NCBI GenBank assembly: GCA_021300195.1
Contig: JAJTIE010000032.1
Coordinates: 1-64,000 of the forward strand
Reading direction: 5' to 3'
DNA length: 64,000 nt
Source: Bacteroidota bacterium
GTDB lineage: Bacteria > Bacteroidota > Bacteroidia > J057 > JAJTIE01
Shown: positions 23,300-49,324 of the stretch, in pieces
Layout: each line of letters starts with the position of its first letter
Position numbering within the stretch: the first letter of the stretch is position 1
Position numbers and translations under genes: made by a program
The notes under the pieces: generated by a model
The model's input: the letters and a program-made list of their open reading frames with translations, nothing else
Told to the model about the DNA's origin: nothing
Database searches by the model: none

Positions 23300-23313
23300 A
23301 TCACGGTATTTTG

Positions 23314-23388
<75 letters not shown>

Positions 23389-41420: not shown

Positions 41421-44400
41421 GTGGCTGAAGATCTCGAACCCGGCGTTCAACCCGCAAGACCGGAACAGAAACCCGCGACAAGCGCTGAACAGCAGCGTGA
41501 ATGGCGGCTAACACCAATGCCGGAGGGCCCCCACCCCCCGGAGCAGGGCGCACTGCAAGCCCTGCAGGTGCAGATGGCGGCAGTGAACCAGGCCGCCAGT
41601 TTGATCGAGACCGATGCCGAAGGCCAGATTCTGTATGTAAATGACTATTTCTGCCGCCTGACTGGCTATGACCGGGACGAACTGATGGGTAAAACGTACG
41701 GCCTGCCGGGGGCAGTATCGCTACGGGCGGAAGAAGTGGCCAGGCAGTGGGATAGCCTGCGCAGGGGCCAGGTGTGGCGGGGGCAGTACCAGAACCGAAC
41801 CCGCGACAATAGCCACTACTGGGTAGAAGCTACCACCCTGCCCGTGCTGGATGAAGCCCAAAAGCTGGTGAAGCTCATAACCATTGAGTTTGACATTAGC
41901 CTACAGAAAAACCAGGAAGAACAGATACGCACCCAGCTGGAGCTGAGTATGGCGCAAGAGGAAGAACTGCGCCAAAATGCCGAAGAGCTGGAGGCCCAGC
42001 AGGAAGAAATGCGCCGTACGCAGATAGAGCTAACCGGCCAGATCAATGCCCTGAACAACTCGGCCATCGTATCCACCTCCGACCTGCAGGGCCGAATCAT
42101 TAGCGTGAATAGCCAGTTTCTACACATATCCCACTACACCCGAGAGGAGCTGATTGGCCAAAACCACCGTATGCTGAAAAGCGGGCACCAGGCCGACGAT
42201 GTGTTTGAGGAACTATGGAGCACCATCCTACACGGAGAGGTATGGAGGGGAGAAATCAAGAATAAGGCAAAAAATAATACCTATTACTGGATAACAGCCA
42301 CCATCACCCCCGTGCTGGACAGCCGGGGCAAGCCGGTCAAGTACATATCCGTAACCTTTGACATAACGGCACAAAAGCTACAAGAGGAACAGATACGCGC
42401 CGCCCTGGAGATCAGCCAGGCCCAGGAGGTAGAGCTTAGGCAGAATGCCGAGGAGCTGCAAGAGGCGCAAGACGAGATGCGCAAAACGCAGATCGAGCTA
42501 CGTGGGCAGATTCGCGCCGTAAACAACGCGAGCATTGTGGCCGAAACGGACCTGAAGGGCAACATCATCCAAGTGAACGAGGCCTTCTGCCGCATAACCG
42601 GCTACAGCATGGACGAACTGACAGGCAAAAACCACCGCCTGCTGCGTAGCAATGAGCGGCATGACCCCGCCTTTTACGCCACGCTATGGAGCACCATATC
42701 CAGTGGCGAGGTATGGAGTGGCATATTTAAAAACAAGGCCAAGGATCAATCCTGCTACTGGGTAAAAACAACCATCACCCCCGTGCTCGGCTTTGATGGC
42801 AAGCCGGTAAAGTATATATCTGTAAGCTTTGATATCACAACCCAGATAGAGCAGCAGCAGCTCAGCCACATGCAGTCTATCGAGCTGGCAGGCCAGATCA
42901 ATGCGGTAAACAATGCGGCCCTGGTAACCGTAACCGACCCCGAGGGCATCATTACCTTTGCCAACGAAGAAGCCCTTCGCACCTGGGGCTATGAGCGCGA
43001 AGAGCTAATAGGCCAGCCGCACGGCATCGTAAAAAGTACGGATGGCGAGCACGACGAGGCCTTTTACCACCAAATGTGGGAGACCCTGAGAACGGGAGAG
43101 GTGTGGCGCGGAGAGATAAAAAACCAGAGCCGAACCGGCGAGCAATACTGGGAACGGCTCGCCATTACCCCCGTAAAGGATGAAGATGGCCGGGTACTGA
43201 AATACATTGGCGTAGGGTTTGACATTACACGGAACAAGCGCCAGGCCAGCCGGATCAAGATGCTGTTCCATGAAAGCCAGGAACAGGAAAAAAAACTACG
43301 CGCTACGCAGCGCGAACTGGCCGCACAGATCAGCGCAATAAACAACGCGGCCATTGTAAGCGAAACTGATGCTACGGGCACGATCACCTTTGTAAACGAC
43401 GAAGCACTCTACATATGGGGATATAGCCGGACGGAATTGATCGGGCAGCCGCACAGCATCATCAAGCACCCAGACGGTCATCCCGATAAATTCTATAAGC
43501 GGATGTGGGAGAAAATCAGCCAGGGCCACATCTGGCAGGGGCAAGTACTAAACCGAACCAAGCAGGGAGACGGCTTCTGGGTACAGCTCACCATCACACC
43601 CGTACCCGGCGAAGATGGCATCCCGGCCAAATACATAGGCGTAGCCTTTGACATCACCGGCCAGAAAGCACAAAGCATCCGCATAAAGGCTGCCCTGGAG
43701 GCTGCCGGCACCCAGGAAGAAAGCTTTCGCCGGCAGATTAGCCAGCTGCAAACCCAACTAGCCGACAGGGGGCTAGCCCTGCAGCCCACAAGCACCGCAT
43801 CCACCCCTGCCGGTGCCACCGGCAGCCTGCAGCAGCTGCCCCACGCAGCGGCACAGCTGGACGCAGCGCTAAACATACAGGCGGCCAACCTCTCACTGCT
43901 GAAGCTGACGGGCCTGCAAGCCCTGGCAGGCAAGCCACTGGCCAGCCTGCCAGGCAGCGCAAGCCTATTAAGCCCCGAAGACGTGCTGTATGACCTGGCT
44001 CGCCACGGCCACAGCACCCACATCCTGCACCTGCACACCCCCGCCGAGGAGAGCCAGCCCATGCTGGCCACCTTTGTACCCGCCGTGGATGCAGCTCAGC
44101 GACTCCTGCATATTGTGCTGATGCTGGTGCCCGTAAACACACCAACGGCAGCGCAACTCCTGCGGGCACAGTACCCGGCACCCGATAACACCCGTGAGCA
44201 ACAAAAAGAAGCGCCACCCACCAGCCAGGAAACCCGTAGGGACCCGGCTGTGGAGGAAGAGGCAAACCCCTTTGCAGCGGTGGTAGGCCCAGACATTGCC
44301 CTGGACGAGGCCGAGAATGACCGCGCTGCAATGCCAGAGGCACTGACTCCGACATCCCTACCCTATGGACTGGAAGCCCAGCGGCCTGGCGAATTTCGAA

Positions 44401-44762
44401 CAGACCGCACGGGCATCATCCTGGATGCAAACGGGGTCTTCTGTAGCCGCTATGGTTACCGCCTGAGCGAAGTCATCGGCCAGAACATCCGAATCTTGAA
44501 AAGTAAGCGCGTGAGCCCCGGTTATTTCTCACAGCTATGGGCCTCCATTAGCCAGGGCCATAGCTGGCGGGGTGAAATCCTGAATCAGGACAAAACGGGG
44601 GCCGAGCACTGGGCCTATCTGTGCATACAGCCGCTGCTAGATGTGGCGCAAAAGCCCAAGGCCTACGTAGCCCAGCTGTATGACATCCAAAACCACCAGG
44701 GAAACATAGCGAACCAAGACCAGGTGCTGGGTGTAAGCCAAGTGAAACAGCAGGAACCATGA
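41421..44762 (+). CDS. Multi-PAS sensor protein without output domain
   Basis: A 1113-residue soluble protein starting with GTG. Five well-preserved PAS-PAC units lie at about residues 50-170, 205-320, 362-472, 488-605 and 632-748. A degenerate one is at about 810-905 and a last one at about 985-1092. Each good unit has the NxxF/GY..EEL.G..H..L pattern and the PAC ending YI.V.FDIT. The first units are joined by a repeated coiled-coil linker (EEQIR..LE.S.AQE.ELRQNAEEL). There is no histidine kinase, GGDEF, EAL, PP2C or receiver domain. It is followed by cheR, cheB and two SiaB/SiaC-like pairs, so it probably feeds a signal to them. Confidence 0.9.
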   Translation: MAEDLEPGVQPARPEQKPATSAEQQREWRLTPMPEGPHPPEQGALQALQVQMAAVNQAASLIETDAEGQILYVNDYFCRLTGYDRDELMGKTYGLPGAVSLRAEEVARQWDSLRRGQVWRGQYQNRTRDNSHYWVEATTLPVLDEAQKLVKLITIEFDISLQKNQEEQIRTQLELSMAQEEELRQNAEELEAQQEEMRRTQIELTGQINALNNSAIVSTSDLQGRIISVNSQFLHISHYTREELIGQNHRMLKSGHQADDVFEELWSTILHGEVWRGEIKNKAKNNTYYWITATITPVLDSRGKPVKYISVTFDITAQKLQEEQIRAALEISQAQEVELRQNAEELQEAQDEMRKTQIELRGQIRAVNNASIVAETDLKGNIIQVNEAFCRITGYSMDELTGKNHRLLRSNERHDPAFYATLWSTISSGEVWSGIFKNKAKDQSCYWVKTTITPVLGFDGKPVKYISVSFDITTQIEQQQLSHMQSIELAGQINAVNNAALVTVTDPEGIITFANEEALRTWGYEREELIGQPHGIVKSTDGEHDEAFYHQMWETLRTGEVWRGEIKNQSRTGEQYWERLAITPVKDEDGRVLKYIGVGFDITRNKRQASRIKMLFHESQEQEKKLRATQRELAAQISAINNAAIVSETDATGTITFVNDEALYIWGYSRTELIGQPHSIIKHPDGHPDKFYKRMWEKISQGHIWQGQVLNRTKQGDGFWVQLTITPVPGEDGIPAKYIGVAFDITGQKAQSIRIKAALEAAGTQEESFRRQISQLQTQLADRGLALQPTSTASTPAGATGSLQQLPHAAAQLDAALNIQAANLSLLKLTGLQALAGKPLASLPGSASLLSPEDVLYDLARHGHSTHILHLHTPAEESQPMLATFVPAVDAAQRLLHIVLMLVPVNTPTAAQLLRAQYPAPDNTREQQKEAPPTSQETRRDPAVEEEANPFAAVVGPDIALDEAENDRAAMPEALTPTSLPYGLEAQRPGEFRTDRTGIILDANGVFCSRYGYRLSEVIGQNIRILKSKRVSPGYFSQLWASISQGHSWRGEILNQDKTGAEHWAYLCIQPLLDVAQKPKAYVAQLYDIQNHQGNIANQDQVLGVSQVKQQEP

Positions 44763-44940
44763 GGTACAAACACCCGAAGCCCCCAGCCTGTACGCCCCAG
44801 ACCCGCCAGAGACAAGGCCATACACCTATAACGTTTATGCCCACCCCCGCGTACAAGATAACGTTGCCAGCCACAGCAAAGACCCCGCAGTAGCCTAATA
44901 GTTAGATCTCCCCCCCACCCTTACGCCCCCCACCCAGCCC
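44763..44940. other. Gap between the PAS gene and cheR
   Basis: 178 bp, C-rich, with no clear promoter, terminator or reading frame. Confidence 0.4.
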
Positions 44941-45792
44941 ATGAATATGTATAGTCCCCCCAGCGATTCAGAAATCGACATAGAGCTTTCGGAACTCGAG
45001 CGGCTGACAGAGGCCATTCTCACCAAATACGGGTACGACTTCAGCGACTATGCCATGTCTTCCTTCAAGCGGCGCATCATCATGGTGCTCAAAAAGCATG
45101 CCATACGCACGGTAGAGCAGCTCATCAAAAAGCTGCTGCACGATGCCTCGTTTTTCGATCAGTTTATCCTGGATGTAACCGTAAACACAACCGAGATGTA
45201 CCGCGACCCCTCCTTCTGGCGGGTACTGCGGCACCAGATACTGCCTATCCTGAATACCCGCCCGGAGTTCAACATCTGGCACGCAGCATGTAGCACGGGC
45301 GAGGAAGTGGTGAGCATGGCCAGCGTGCTGCGCGAAGAAGGCATGCTACAGCGAGCCAAGATATATGCCACCGACATTAACCATGTCGTATTAAAAAAGG
45401 CACAGGAGCTGCGCTACCCCGTACGCAACCAGGAGATCAGCCTGCAAAACTATGCCCAGACCGACCCAAAAGCCCGGCTGGAAGACTACTATGAGCTGAA
45501 GGATGGCGAAATGGTATTCGACAAGAGCCTGATCGAAAACATCAAGTTCAAGCACCACGACCTGGCCATAGACCACCACTTCTTCAAGTTTGACCTCATC
45601 CTGTGTCGAAACGTCATGATCTACTTCAACCAAAAGCTGCAGAACCGCGTGTTTGAGCTGCTGCACAACAGCCTGTTCCTCGGTGGTTTTGTGGCACTGG
45701 GTGCCAAGGAGTCGCTCATCTGGTGCAAGATTGCGGACAAGTTTGAGGCCGTAAACGATGCAGAAAAAATCTACAAAAAGATTAAACTGTAG
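44941..45792 (+). CDS. CheR-type protein-glutamate methyltransferase
   Basis: A 283-residue CheR. The N-terminal helical domain (YGYDFSDYAMSSFKRRIIMVLKKH) includes the usual RRI. The SAM-binding Rossmann domain has IWHAACSTGEEVVSMASVL, YATDINHVVLKKAQ and FDLILCRNVMIYFNQKLQ. CheR methylates glutamates on chemoreceptors. No methyl-accepting protein is in the window, so its target may be the multi-PAS protein or another receptor. The next gene (cheB) starts within 10 bp of its stop, so the two are co-translated. Confidence 0.93.
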   Translation: MNMYSPPSDSEIDIELSELERLTEAILTKYGYDFSDYAMSSFKRRIIMVLKKHAIRTVEQLIKKLLHDASFFDQFILDVTVNTTEMYRDPSFWRVLRHQILPILNTRPEFNIWHAACSTGEEVVSMASVLREEGMLQRAKIYATDINHVVLKKAQELRYPVRNQEISLQNYAQTDPKARLEDYYELKDGEMVFDKSLIENIKFKHHDLAIDHHFFKFDLILCRNVMIYFNQKLQNRVFELLHNSLFLGGFVALGAKESLIWCKIADKFEAVNDAEKIYKKIKL

Positions 45793-45801
45793 GTGCCGCG
45801 C

Positions 45802-46380
45802 ATGTTCTACATCAAGGACAAGAATAAATATCAGGCCCTGGTAATCGGCGGTTCTGCGGGCAGCTTCCCGGTTATTAACCGCATCCTCGAGAGCCTTACG
45901 CCCGGCTACCGCCTGCCCCTCATCATGTGCCTACACAGGCTGAAAGATAAACGGGAGGGCTTTCAGGAGGCACTGCGCATAAAAAGCAAACTGCCCGTGA
46001 GCGAGCCCGATGACAAAAGCCCAATCGAACACGGGAACGCCTATGTAGCACCGGCCAACTACCACCTGCTTGTTGAAAAACCCGGCCTCTTTGCCCTGGC
46101 TACTACAGAGCTGGTGCAGTATAGCAGGCCTAGTATAGACGTACTGTTTGAGAGCGCTGCCGACGTGTATCAGGATCGGCTGATCGCCCTACTGGTAAGT
46201 GGTGCCAACCGGGATGGTGCCTACGGCATGTACAAGGTAAAAAAAGCCGGCGGGCTATGCGTGGTGCAAGACCCCGAGGAGTGTGGAATGGCCACCATGC
46301 CCGAGGCGGCAATAAAGGCCACCCGAATAGACCACGTACTACCTGTTGAAAAAATCATTGAGCTCCTGCAGTCCGTTTAG
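45802..46380 (+). CDS. Stand-alone CheB methylesterase
   Basis: A protein of about 192 residues formed only by the CheB catalytic domain, without a receiver. The catalytic Ser is in IGGSAGSFPVI, the His in IMCLHRLKDKREG and the Asp in LLVSGANRDGAYGMY. NAYVAPANYHLLV and the C-terminal region match CheB methylesterases, which remove methyl groups placed by CheR. Loss of the receiver means activity is not set by CheA phosphorylation in the usual way. The start is ATG 45802; a GTG at 45793 directly after the cheR stop is an alternative. Confidence 0.92.
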   Translation: MFYIKDKNKYQALVIGGSAGSFPVINRILESLTPGYRLPLIMCLHRLKDKREGFQEALRIKSKLPVSEPDDKSPIEHGNAYVAPANYHLLVEKPGLFALATTELVQYSRPSIDVLFESAADVYQDRLIALLVSGANRDGAYGMYKVKKAGGLCVVQDPEECGMATMPEAAIKATRIDHVLPVEKIIELLQSV

Positions 46381-46606
46381 CAAGGCAGGCCAGCCTGTAT
46401 AGCGCCCCCGAAACCGACAGGCCCAAAACCCCAAATGCACCAGATCCGTAGTCTGCATAGAAGCCGTTGCCCCAGGCACAAGCAGGGTGCACGCGTGCAG
46501 CAGGCATACGGTAGCCGGCGGCCTGTAGCCTCCCGGCCACTATTTTTCTTATCGAAATATCGTATATTGCACGCGCTATAATTTTTCTGCATCTATTGCA
46601 TTTGGT
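46381..46606. other. Gap between cheB and the first SiaB-like gene
   Basis: 226 bp with AT-rich DNA just before the gene, suggesting a promoter for the SiaB/SiaC genes, but no exact TAnnTTTG box is seen. No reading frame is supported. Confidence 0.4.
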
Positions 46607-47203
46607 ATGAGCGAGATAACAGCGACAGCCGACGGGCGTGTAAAGCGAGAACTGGGCTTTGTATATCCTTGCTACAAGGATATGGTAGACAATAACATTA
46701 TATTCTCGTTTCGCGGCAAGGTAACAGCCGACCTGGTAACCAATGTACTGGAGATGATGGGAGAAAAGCTGGAAGACGAAAACGAGACCAAAAAGATGTC
46801 GAAAAAGCTGAGCAACGTAATGGTGGAGTGCCTTACGAATGTGTATGCCGAAGAAACAACCCCGATAGAGAAGCCCCACTATGACCCTACCGCGCTGCTG
46901 CTGGTAAAAAAGGTGCTCGATGCCTATGTAGTTATTACCGGCAGTTTCATAGCCACAAACACAGTATCCAAGCTGAAGAAAGTACTGGATCACATCAATT
47001 CGCTGGACAAGGATGGGCTGAAGGACTTTTATGTAGAGCAGCTATCTTCCGAAACAAGGCATGCCCACAACGGGCTAACCGTACTGGGCATGGTAGACCT
47101 CGCACGCAAGAGCAAGCATCAACTAACCTACCAGTTCAAGCTTGAGGATGCAGCCTACACCTACTTTCTGCTAGAGGCACGTATCTCTCCCCAGAGCTTC
47201 TAA
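46607..47203 (+). CDS. SiaB-like protein kinase, copy 1 (DUF6272)
   Basis: A 198-residue protein with a GHKL-type fold related to SiaB, the kinase of the Pseudomonas SiaABCD system. The helix NVMVECLTNVYAE corresponds to the ATP-binding N box, preceded by IIFSFRGKVTADLVTNVLEMMGEKL. The C-terminal part contains NGLTVLGMVDLARKSKHQLTYQF. SiaB phosphorylates SiaC. Here a SiaC-like gene follows 29 bp downstream. The same pair is repeated just after. An N-terminal extension of about 14 residues distinguishes it from copy 2. Confidence 0.85.
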   Translation: MSEITATADGRVKRELGFVYPCYKDMVDNNIIFSFRGKVTADLVTNVLEMMGEKLEDENETKKMSKKLSNVMVECLTNVYAEETTPIEKPHYDPTALLLVKKVLDAYVVITGSFIATNTVSKLKKVLDHINSLDKDGLKDFYVEQLSSETRHAHNGLTVLGMVDLARKSKHQLTYQFKLEDAAYTYFLLEARISPQSF

Positions 47204-47232
47204 ATATCTCCCCTCGAAAACCACCCCAGCAT

Positions 47233-47613
47233 ATGGAACCGCTAAAAATTGAACCCACTCACAAAACGCCCAAGGTTTATTTTGACCCCAGCGAAAATGT
47301 ATTCGAGCTTAGTGGCCGCTCCATCCCCGAAGATTCGGTGGGCTTCTACAAACATGTGCTAGACTGGATAGATGAGTATGGCAAAGCACCCAATGCCGAA
47401 ACGGTTGTAACCTTTGAGCTAGAATACTTTAACACCAGTAGCTCAAAGAACATACTGGAGCTACTAAAAAAACTGGAGGCCATACATGAGGCAGGTAACA
47501 ACCTGAAGATTGTATGGTACTACGACGAAGATGACGAAGACATGGAGGAGACCGGAGAGGACTACAAAGCCCTGCTATCCGTACCACTGGAATTAAAAAT
47601 GAAAGTTTACTAA
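47233..47613 (+). CDS. SiaC-like phosphoprotein, copy 1 (DUF1987)
   Basis: A 126-residue DUF1987 protein. The conserved blocks are IEPTHKTPKV, LSGRSIPEDSVGFY, VLDWIDEYGK, LEYFNTSSSKN and DDEDMEETGEDYKALL. The threonine of YFNTSSSK is residue 68, the position recalled as phosphorylated in Pseudomonas SiaC. Phosphorylation state decides which partner SiaC binds, for example the diguanylate cyclase SiaD. No SiaD or SiaA-type phosphatase is present in this window. Its stop overlaps the promoter of the second pair. Confidence 0.88.
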   Translation: MEPLKIEPTHKTPKVYFDPSENVFELSGRSIPEDSVGFYKHVLDWIDEYGKAPNAETVVTFELEYFNTSSSKNILELLKKLEAIHEAGNNLKIVWYYDEDDEDMEETGEDYKALLSVPLELKMKVY

Positions 47614-47618
47614 CTTTG
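47611..47618 (+). promoter_or_regulatory. -7 box for the second SiaB/SiaC pair
   Basis: A perfect TAnnTTTG (TAACTTTG) covers the stop codon of the first SiaC-like gene, 53 bp before the second SiaB-like start. The -33 element is unclear. Confidence 0.5.
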
Positions 47619-47670
47619 CGAGTCCTTTTTGGTAATCATCTGAAAATCAGAACCTATCTACCCTGGTAAT

Positions 47671-48219
47671 ATGACTTACAGCTACTATAAAAACATGCAG
47701 CAGAACAACATCATCTTTGTATACCAAGGTGAAGTTACTGCTGATCTTGTATCGTCTATCCTCCATATGATGGAGAACAAGCTGGATGGTGATGGGGAAG
47801 ACAAGAAAATCAAGAAAAAGGTCTTCAACGTGATGGTAGAATGCTTGCAAAACGTATACCACCACCTGGATACCATTGATGTTTCGGTGTCGGAGGGCGA
47901 TATCAACGATCGTACCGCACTGCTTATGATCGGCAAAGAGGAAACAGACTACTATGTCATCACCGGAAATCATATCTACAACGATCGAATAGCAAACCTG
48001 AAAGATCGACTGGAGAAGGTGAACAAATGCGACAAAAATGAGCTGAAAGCACTTTATCAGGCTATCCTGAACGATGGCGAGCTGTCTGAAAAAGGAACCG
48101 CGGGGCTTGGTATGATTGATATTGCCCGAAAAAGCGGCCAAAAGCTCGGCTTCGACTTCCACCCGGTAAACGATAAGTACTCTTTCTTTAGCCTGGAAGC
48201 CAAAATTGCACGCAACTAA
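47671..48219 (+). CDS. SiaB-like protein kinase, copy 2
   Basis: A 182-residue paralogue of the gene at 46607. Matching segments are NNIIFVYQGEVTADLVSSIL, NVMVECLQNVYHH (N box) and GTAGLGMIDIARKSGQKLGF. It lacks the N-terminal extension of copy 1. A SiaC-like gene follows 19 bp downstream. The divergence between the two copies is moderate, so the duplication is not recent and the two kinases may answer different signals or act on different SiaC proteins. ATP-binding residues look intact. Confidence 0.85.
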   Translation: MTYSYYKNMQQNNIIFVYQGEVTADLVSSILHMMENKLDGDGEDKKIKKKVFNVMVECLQNVYHHLDTIDVSVSEGDINDRTALLMIGKEETDYYVITGNHIYNDRIANLKDRLEKVNKCDKNELKALYQAILNDGELSEKGTAGLGMIDIARKSGQKLGFDFHPVNDKYSFFSLEAKIARN

Positions 48220-48238
48220 TCACTCAGTCTTTACTTAG

Positions 48239-48613
48239 ATGAGAAACTTAATCATAGAACCCACCCCCAAGACACCAAAAGTTATCCTGAATGCCGATAT
48301 CAACGTATTCGAGGTGTCTGGTCGTTCTATTCCCGAAGACTCGGTAGGGTTTTATCGCAAAATCCTGGACTGGATAGATGAGTACAGCAAAACACCGAAC
48401 GCTAGCACGAACGTAAAGTTCCAGCTGGAATACTTCAATACCAGCTCTTCCAAATGCCTGCTGGACCTATTTCGCAAACTGGAGAAGCTTGCAAAATCCG
48501 GCAATGAAGTGTCTATCACCTGGTGCTATGATGCCGATGACGAGGATATGGAGGAAACCGGCGAGGACTACAAGGCACTGCTTGACATGAATTTCGAGCT
48601 TGTTTCCATATAA
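48239..48613 (+). CDS. SiaC-like phosphoprotein, copy 2 (DUF1987)
   Basis: A 124-residue DUF1987 protein sharing IEPTPKTPKV, VSGRSIPEDSVGFY, LDWIDEYSK, LEYFNTSSSK and DDEDMEETGEDYKALL with copy 1. The presumed phosphothreonine is again residue 68. It differs mainly at the N-terminal strand, the helix after the phosphosite (CLLDLFRKLEKLAKSGNEV) and the C-terminus, the places where partner choice could differ. It ends the SiaB/SiaC block before the hairpin at 48656. Confidence 0.88.
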   Translation: MRNLIIEPTPKTPKVILNADINVFEVSGRSIPEDSVGFYRKILDWIDEYSKTPNASTNVKFQLEYFNTSSSKCLLDLFRKLEKLAKSGNEVSITWCYDADDEDMEETGEDYKALLDMNFELVSI

Positions 48614-48655
48614 GATTTACACACAACACCCTGTGGGCTAAGAAAAAGTAAGATT

Positions 48656-48692
48656 GGCGTGTTCAAAAGTTTGACACGCCTTCTGTCTTTTG
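48656..48692 (+). terminator. Terminator behind the second SiaC-like gene
   Basis: GGCGTGTTCAAA (48656-48667) pairs with TTTGACACGCC (48670-48680), followed by a T-rich tail TTCTGTCTTTT. Confidence 0.65.
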
Positions 48693-48715
48693 GTTTAGCC
48701 TTAGTCCTAATTTTG
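48689..48715 (+). promoter_or_regulatory. Promoter of the coiled-coil membrane protein gene
   Basis: TAATTTTG (48708-48715) is a perfect TAnnTTTG -7 box; TTTG at 48689-48692 is a possible -33 element although the spacing (15 bp) is short. The ATG is at 48740. Confidence 0.55.
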
Positions 48716-48739
48716 AACTAATAACCTAAACATACGGAG

Positions 48740-49324
48740 ATGGCACAGAAGAAGGAAGAAGCGTTTCAACTAGAAAGTGTTGTACTGGAGAATGCGCGCA
48801 AGGCGCTGGAAAACCCCACCACTAATGCGGAACAGCTGCGCACAGAATACAGCACCCTGCTGGAGGAGTATGAAAAACTACTGGATGAGGCAAAATTCCT
48901 GACAAAAATCTCTGACAAACTGGAGGCCAAGCTGAACGCGAGCAACGAAAAACTGCAGCAATTCAACAAAGAACTGGCACAAGAGGCTGAATCGGCAAAA
49001 ACCGAGACCGAGAAAGTGCTAAAGAAGAACCGCCGCCTCTTTGAGCAGAAAACCGAAGCCGATATCAGCCGGAACCGCCTACAGCTTACCATGACAATCC
49101 TGATTGGTCTGCTCGTGGTGGTTATCCTGCTGTTCGTCTATCAGTTCCTGGGCTGCCGCCTGGGCCTGAAAACCGGACCTGAATGCCGAGGTGCAGCCCG
49201 TACAGAGCAGGTACAGGAGCCGGGAAAGGCCGAAAGCACGATAGAAAACCTGGAGAACAATACCAGCCAAGAGGAAGTAAAGGAAACCAAAGAAGCGGAA
49301 GAAACAGAGAACGAGTTTAAATAG
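48740..49324 (+). CDS. Coiled-coil single-pass membrane protein
   Basis: A 194-residue protein. A long coiled coil at about residues 10-110 (LLEEYEKLLDEAKFLTKISD, LEAKLNASNEKLQQFNKELA) is followed by one membrane helix at about 116-137 (MTILIGLLVVVILLFVYQFL) and an acidic tail (NNTSQEEVKETKEAEETENE). The large cytoplasmic coil could bind the soluble signalling proteins encoded upstream. It has its own promoter. I know no named family for it. Its link with the SiaB/SiaC genes rests on position and on the coiled-coil pattern. Confidence 0.8.
   Translation: MAQKKEEAFQLESVVLENARKALENPTTNAEQLRTEYSTLLEEYEKLLDEAKFLTKISDKLEAKLNASNEKLQQFNKELAQEAESAKTETEKVLKKNRRLFEQKTEADISRNRLQLTMTILIGLLVVVILLFVYQFLGCRLGLKTGPECRGAARTEQVQEPGKAESTIENLENNTSQEEVKETKEAEETENEFK

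Follow-up and report, generated by a model that had tools for sequence, protein, structure and literature searches.

Chemotaxis keeps its memory in receptor methylation, which the classical pathway of methyl-accepting chemotaxis proteins (MCPs), CheA, CheW and CheY couples to the kinase CheA. Bacteroidota also carry clusters of the type HK-REC-CheR-CheB and CheB-CheR-PAS-HK fusions, in which CheR and CheB stand beside a GAF/PAS sensor and the output is a histidine kinase (HK). In the SiaABCD system of Pseudomonas aeruginosa (PMC7647112, PMC8457831), the kinase SiaB, the phospho-acceptor SiaC and a PP2C receptor phosphatase form a switch; the phosphosite of SiaC is Thr68 (PMC7647112), and the stalk residues R80, I81, S82, D83, R84, Y85 and Q86 of SiaD contact SiaC around it (PMC8457831). 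Here we analyzed a 64,000-nucleotide stretch, the whole of which is called the window, from contig JAJTIE010000032.1 of a Bacteroidota genome (2.67 Mb, 98.6% complete). At 41421-49324, CheR and CheB are clustered with SiaB and SiaC. In a branch of Bacteroidota, such clustering with a SiaA/B/C-type switch, rather than with a chemotaxis kinase, is conserved, suggesting a tunable sensor pathway of an undescribed kind. A literature search of open-licence PMC papers found no description of CheR/CheB with SiaC or with a PP2C phosphatase or partner switch, although this leaves such an absence unproven.

The locus comprises eight genes, all on the + strand, which we assigned to families by Pfam and NCBIfam profile matches. 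The first (41421..44762, GTG start) encodes a multi-PAS protein of 1113 aa with six PAS stretches, followed after 178 bp by genes for a CheR glutamate O-methyltransferase (44941..45792; CheR profile, 1.9e-37) and a CheB methylesterase (45793..46380; CheB_methylest, 4.3e-47), whose match spans the esterase domain alone, without a receiver. After a further 226 bp come two pairs, each of a SiaB-family protein kinase adjoining a SiaC (DUF1987) phospho-acceptor protein with Thr68: SiaB1 (46607..47203) and SiaC1 (47233..47613; Thr68 codon 47434-47436), then SiaB2 (47671..48219) and SiaC2 (48239..48613; Thr68 codon 48440-48442). The E-values of the two copies were 1.2e-33 and 1.9e-51 for SiaB_fam_kinase and 4.7e-43 and 5.9e-43 for SiaC. 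A coiled-coil protein with one transmembrane (TM) helix closes the cluster (48740..49324). This order, with its receiver-less cheB, had been read from the nucleotides alone in a first-pass annotation, and both the profiles and the coordinates agree with it. With gaps of 178 bp and 226 bp, gene order is no proof of one transcript. No histidine kinase was found within the cluster.

The residues expected of working enzymes are in place. The triad S21, H48 and D141 of CheB, aligned with solved CheB enzymes, is kept, as are E74 and N78 of SiaB. In alignments of 50 to 77 homologues these residues and T68 of SiaC were invariant. The PP2C aspartates were invariant as well.

To place the locus in a wider frame, we examined 195 genomes of another order (that of genome G070), where 48 phosphatase-type CheR loci were picked, with CheR score and spread over families as the sole criteria. 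With one locus cut off by the end of its contig, 47 were informative; 37 of them, from 13 families, have SiaB and SiaC just downstream on the same strand, mostly in the order cheR-cheB-GAF-PP2C-siaB-siaC-TerB/ABC transporter. The same SiaB-SiaC linkage was found in five of five further loci (L050, L051, L053, L054, L055). Since a genome holds only a handful of SiaC genes, we estimate that chance would bring CheR near SiaC in a few per cent of cases at most. The order is thus conserved well beyond close relatives, and the linkage of CheR/CheB with SiaB/SiaC is solid. SiaC was present in 93 of 94 genomes with a phosphatase-type CheR vs 22 of 101 without, a comparison in which the genomes are related, so that Fisher values overstate independence and P is indicative only. 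As far as sequence can tell, this conserved coupling lends good support to the first-pass proposal that methylation and Ser/Thr phosphorylation act on one sensory pathway.

The histidine-kinase systems are set apart by both their CheRs and their neighbors. In the CheR tree the HK-type clade was separate (100/100), the window-order clade was likewise supported at 100/100, and the window CheR clustered with phosphatase-linked CheRs outside the HK clade. SiaB/SiaC occurred near none of 14 HK-type CheR loci. With its CheR in a separate clade, membership of the locus in the HK-CheR-CheB type was ruled out.

Some clusters of the other order carry further genes or lack some. Downstream of siaC, Cytophagales clusters encode a TerB-ABC-transporter fusion (~1030 aa; L054:16042-19110 and most of L076-L112), a candidate output, and then genes of ~300 and ~145 aa. 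In one genus (L117, L118, L121), CheR is followed directly by SiaB-SiaC-ABC, and cheB and the phosphatase are missing from these loci. Elsewhere in genome G545, a motif-bearing PP2C protein accompanies another CheR match (L177).

The genome of the window leaves little room for the partners known from the described systems. It encodes a single CheR, and profile searches across it found neither a CheW domain (PF01584) nor GGDEF, and hence no CheA carrying a CheW domain and no SiaD. The first-pass statement that CheA and SiaD are lacking thus extends genome-wide, for CheA as regards proteins with a CheW domain; CheR/CheB therefore have no CheA system of that kind to serve, and SiaC has no SiaD. 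Cyclic di-GMP as the output was ruled out by the lack of GGDEF. No MCP domain was seen by Pfam in the receptors examined; PF00015 was not searched genome-wide. The same genome has three SiaB, six SiaC and 16 SpoIIE/PP2C matches, from which several phosphatases may feed few kinases. Three of the SiaC genes are solo, with no adjoining SiaB (L033, L035 and L036, on contigs C34, C33 and C39). The sole RNA gene found in the window is a tRNA-Ala (GGC) at 23313-23387.

The switch at the window locus appears without its phosphatase, and relatives show where that gene would have been. In genome G019, of the same family (L037), the order is PAS-cheR-cheB-[1053-aa GAF-PAS-PP2C]-siaB1-siaC1-siaB2-siaC2-CC, CC being the coiled-coil gene; the phosphatase (L037:5719-8880) has two N-terminal TM helices, and its position corresponds to the gap 46381..46606 (+) of the window. 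The order cheR-cheB-phosphatase also occurs in G003, G004 and G018. The simplest account of the absence at the window locus is therefore a loss specific to this lineage, and a system lacking the phosphatase by design was ruled out by its presence in relatives. The first-pass remark that there is no SiaA phosphatase thus holds at the window locus but fails for the clusters of relatives and for the genome with its 16 matches. Among the matches listed in the window genome, no phosphatase orthologue covered more than the PP2C domain. G020, from a third family, has the window's gene order, likewise without the phosphatase; directly upstream of its cheR, on the opposite strand, lies a 3125-aa open frame (L039:1-9377), at the site of the multi-PAS receptor in other members of the order.

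The multi-PAS protein also appears to have lost a part. It has no output domain in Pfam or NCBIfam and no TM helix. Its homologues in G019 and G004 have one or more TM helices and a GAF domain before the PAS array, with a HAMP domain in G019. Because its homology to the G019 receptor begins only at residue 350 of the latter, behind HAMP and GAF, the window protein appears to be a receptor from which the TM-HAMP-GAF half has gone. The first-pass view of a system without a receptor is therefore not upheld. Elsewhere in the window genome are a complete receptor of the same build (1547 aa, TM-GAF-PAS, contig C58) and a PP2C receptor (1538 aa, contig C1).

Receptors and phosphatases have in common a coiled coil, EEEMRQNxEELxATQEE, in which pairs of glutamates recur at seven-residue intervals; we call these EE heptads. 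In cluster phosphatases it is a conserved helix, LRQNAEEMxATQEEL, after the GAF domain, and a search with a peptide derived from this helix ranked the cluster phosphatase first, followed by further proteins of the same genomes. The motif-bearing proteins that were read are mostly output-less TM receptors ending in the motif helix or in PAS domains. In 11 receptors (24-28% identity to the first), E503-505, Q508, N509, E511, E512, L513, T516, Q517 and R522 were invariant. An AlphaFold2 receptor model (mean pLDDT 78, domain packing unsure) placed the motif in one long continuous C-terminal helix behind the GAF domain. The window multi-PAS protein has two copies, EEELRQNAEELEAQQEEM (residues 180-197; 41958..42011, +), with the motif invariant in output-less receptors, and the weaker EVELRQNAEELQEAQDEM (residues 336-353; 42426..42479, +). 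About six copies lie in the C58 receptor, and the motif is also found in the C1 protein, here together with PP2C. The resemblance to the methylation helices of chemoreceptors makes the EE heptads a candidate methyl-accepting site. They had escaped the first-pass annotation, as had the SiaC-binding-like motif described below.

EE heptads also occur beside CheR outside this type of cluster. In the coil before the output, HK-type-CheR kinases and CheB-CheR-PAS-HK fusions carry runs such as SEEELRVQQEELQQTNEEL and NEELQSxNEELQSTNEEL (L056-L064, L124-L128, L179-L184, L089:14918-18517). Their distribution suggests a possible general rule by which heptad-spaced Glu pairs accompany CheR wherever it works apart from MCPs, and such runs are a possible general marker of its substrates there.

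For the far end of the switch, the coiled-coil membrane protein is the likely SiaC target, as no SiaD or GGDEF protein exists in the lineage. Its TM helix spans residues about 116-134. It adjoins SiaC in four genomes, and a diverged paralog lies beside a SiaB-SiaC pair on contig C10 of the window genome. A core conserved in the family, LTKISDKLEAKL (48899..48934, +), resembles the SiaD stalk segment R80-Q86, and when open reading frames totalling 662,000 residues were scanned with a pattern on this core, the only matches were five proteins adjoining SiaC, the same five from which the pattern was derived.

Compared with the described systems, the pathway that we propose would be SiaABC-like at its output end and chemotaxis-adaptation-like at its input end. 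Lacking SiaD, it falls outside the SiaABCD systems, and lacking a CheW domain, outside the classical chemosensory ones. With SiaABCD the clusters share the SiaB kinase, Thr68 of SiaC, the PP2C receptor phosphatase of the conserved form and the SiaC-binding-like motif of the coiled-coil partner; they differ in the lack of SiaD/GGDEF from the window genome, in the CheR and CheB of the cluster, in the GAF and PAS domains of the phosphatase and in the two SiaB/SiaC pairs of the window order. With the classical chemosensory pathway they share intact CheR/CheB active sites and TM receptors with heptad-spaced Glu pairs, but CheB is receiver-less, the CheW and MCP domains are lacking within the searches given above, and a Ser/Thr phosphatase serves as the output. 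The Bacteroidota histidine-kinase clusters and fusions are alike in the GAF/PAS sensor beside CheR/CheB, the EE heptads and the lack of an MCP, and unlike in their output, CheR clade and neighbors.

In this pathway, TM receptors with a helical or Cache sensor, HAMP, GAF and often PAS domains, and with no kinase or MCP domain, would sense a stimulus. CheR would methylate, and CheB demethylate, glutamates of the EE-heptad coil, located behind the GAF domain and between PAS domains of the receptors, and thereby set receptor gain or adaptation. The receptor state would pass, fused in cis or in trans, to a PP2C (SpoIIE-type) phosphatase built like the receptors, which would oppose SiaB on Thr68 of SiaC; unphosphorylated SiaC would then bind and stabilize coiled-coil targets. 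The window lineage would have lost the cluster phosphatase and the membrane sensor of its PAS protein, roles probably taken by the C1 and C58 receptors. On balance, we favor the reading that the window locus is a reduced local copy of such a chemosensory-like pathway, without CheA/CheW, that tunes a SiaA/B/C-type switch.

Several points weigh against this reading. On the output side, the similarity of LTKISDKLEAKL to the SiaD stalk is a short visual match, and sequence searches of the PDB gave only chance coiled coils, not SiaD. On the input side, the motif occurred in 90 of 94 genomes with a phosphatase-type CheR vs 7 of 101 without; this speaks for the pathway, but the co-occurrence is partly circular, as the peptide used in the search comes from the cluster phosphatase itself. 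EE heptads may also be what a charged coiled coil looks like anyway, and the MCP adaptation-site consensus (PMC6829392) was fully matched in its C-terminal half alone, EExx[ASTG][ASTG], with the N-terminal half partly met. The half-matched consensus would fit a coil that is only an oligomerization or docking helix, with CheR and CheB modifying another protein of the pathway (SiaC, SiaB or the coiled-coil protein). Q508, N509 and R522, not expected as methyl acceptors, are strongly conserved too, and the strict pattern was present in no more than 24 of the 38 cluster phosphatases of the Cytophagales type. However, EE heptads accompany CheR in three contexts, namely the receptors, the CheR-linked histidine kinases and all seven CheB-CheR fusions examined (run NEELQSxNEEL), and in the window order the strict motif is found in the multi-PAS proteins next to cheR and in none of five phosphatases, tracking the CheR-adjacent gene. 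We consider the docking helix unlikely, though the most serious of the alternatives.

The remaining points concern the locus itself, which has no phosphatase and a 226-bp gap between its CheR/CheB and SiaB/SiaC halves. In G001 the halves lie apart (CheR-CheB on contig C26; phosphatase-siaB1-C1-B2-C2-CC on contig C33), and CheR-CheB has no adjoining SiaB/SiaC in G002, G003, G004 and G018. Operon drift could have left two independent modules as neighbors, with other receptors as the partners of CheR/CheB and other phosphatases as those of SiaB/SiaC, but the order kept across 13 families, the near-constant presence of SiaC with phosphatase-type CheR and its absence beside the HK-type CheRs examined make this quite improbable. 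Less probable still is a system decaying in the window organism, a partial relic or one rewired after the loss of phosphatase and membrane sensor: neither the gap 46381..46606 nor the other window gaps hold a remnant of either and G020 also lacks the phosphatase, but all remaining frames are uninterrupted, their active-site residues are invariant, the same order recurs in G020 from another family, and motif-bearing C58 and C1 proteins, the latter with PP2C, stand elsewhere in the genome.

Beyond the window, the reduced pathway may belong to a CheA-independent chemosensory class, widespread in Cytophagales-like Bacteroidota, in which many output-less methyl-accepting GAF/PAS receptors, all tuned by a single CheR/CheB pair, drive a PP2C phosphatase and SiaB/SiaC switch, a generalization that we regard as evenly poised. 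If true, adaptation by methylation would be a portable module acting on a phosphatase-kinase partner switch, and the EE-heptad motif would help to recognize CheR substrates other than MCPs from sequence. For the many GAF/PAS ‘orphan’ receptors that stand unannotated in Bacteroidota, this would supply a pathway, an acceptor site and partners.

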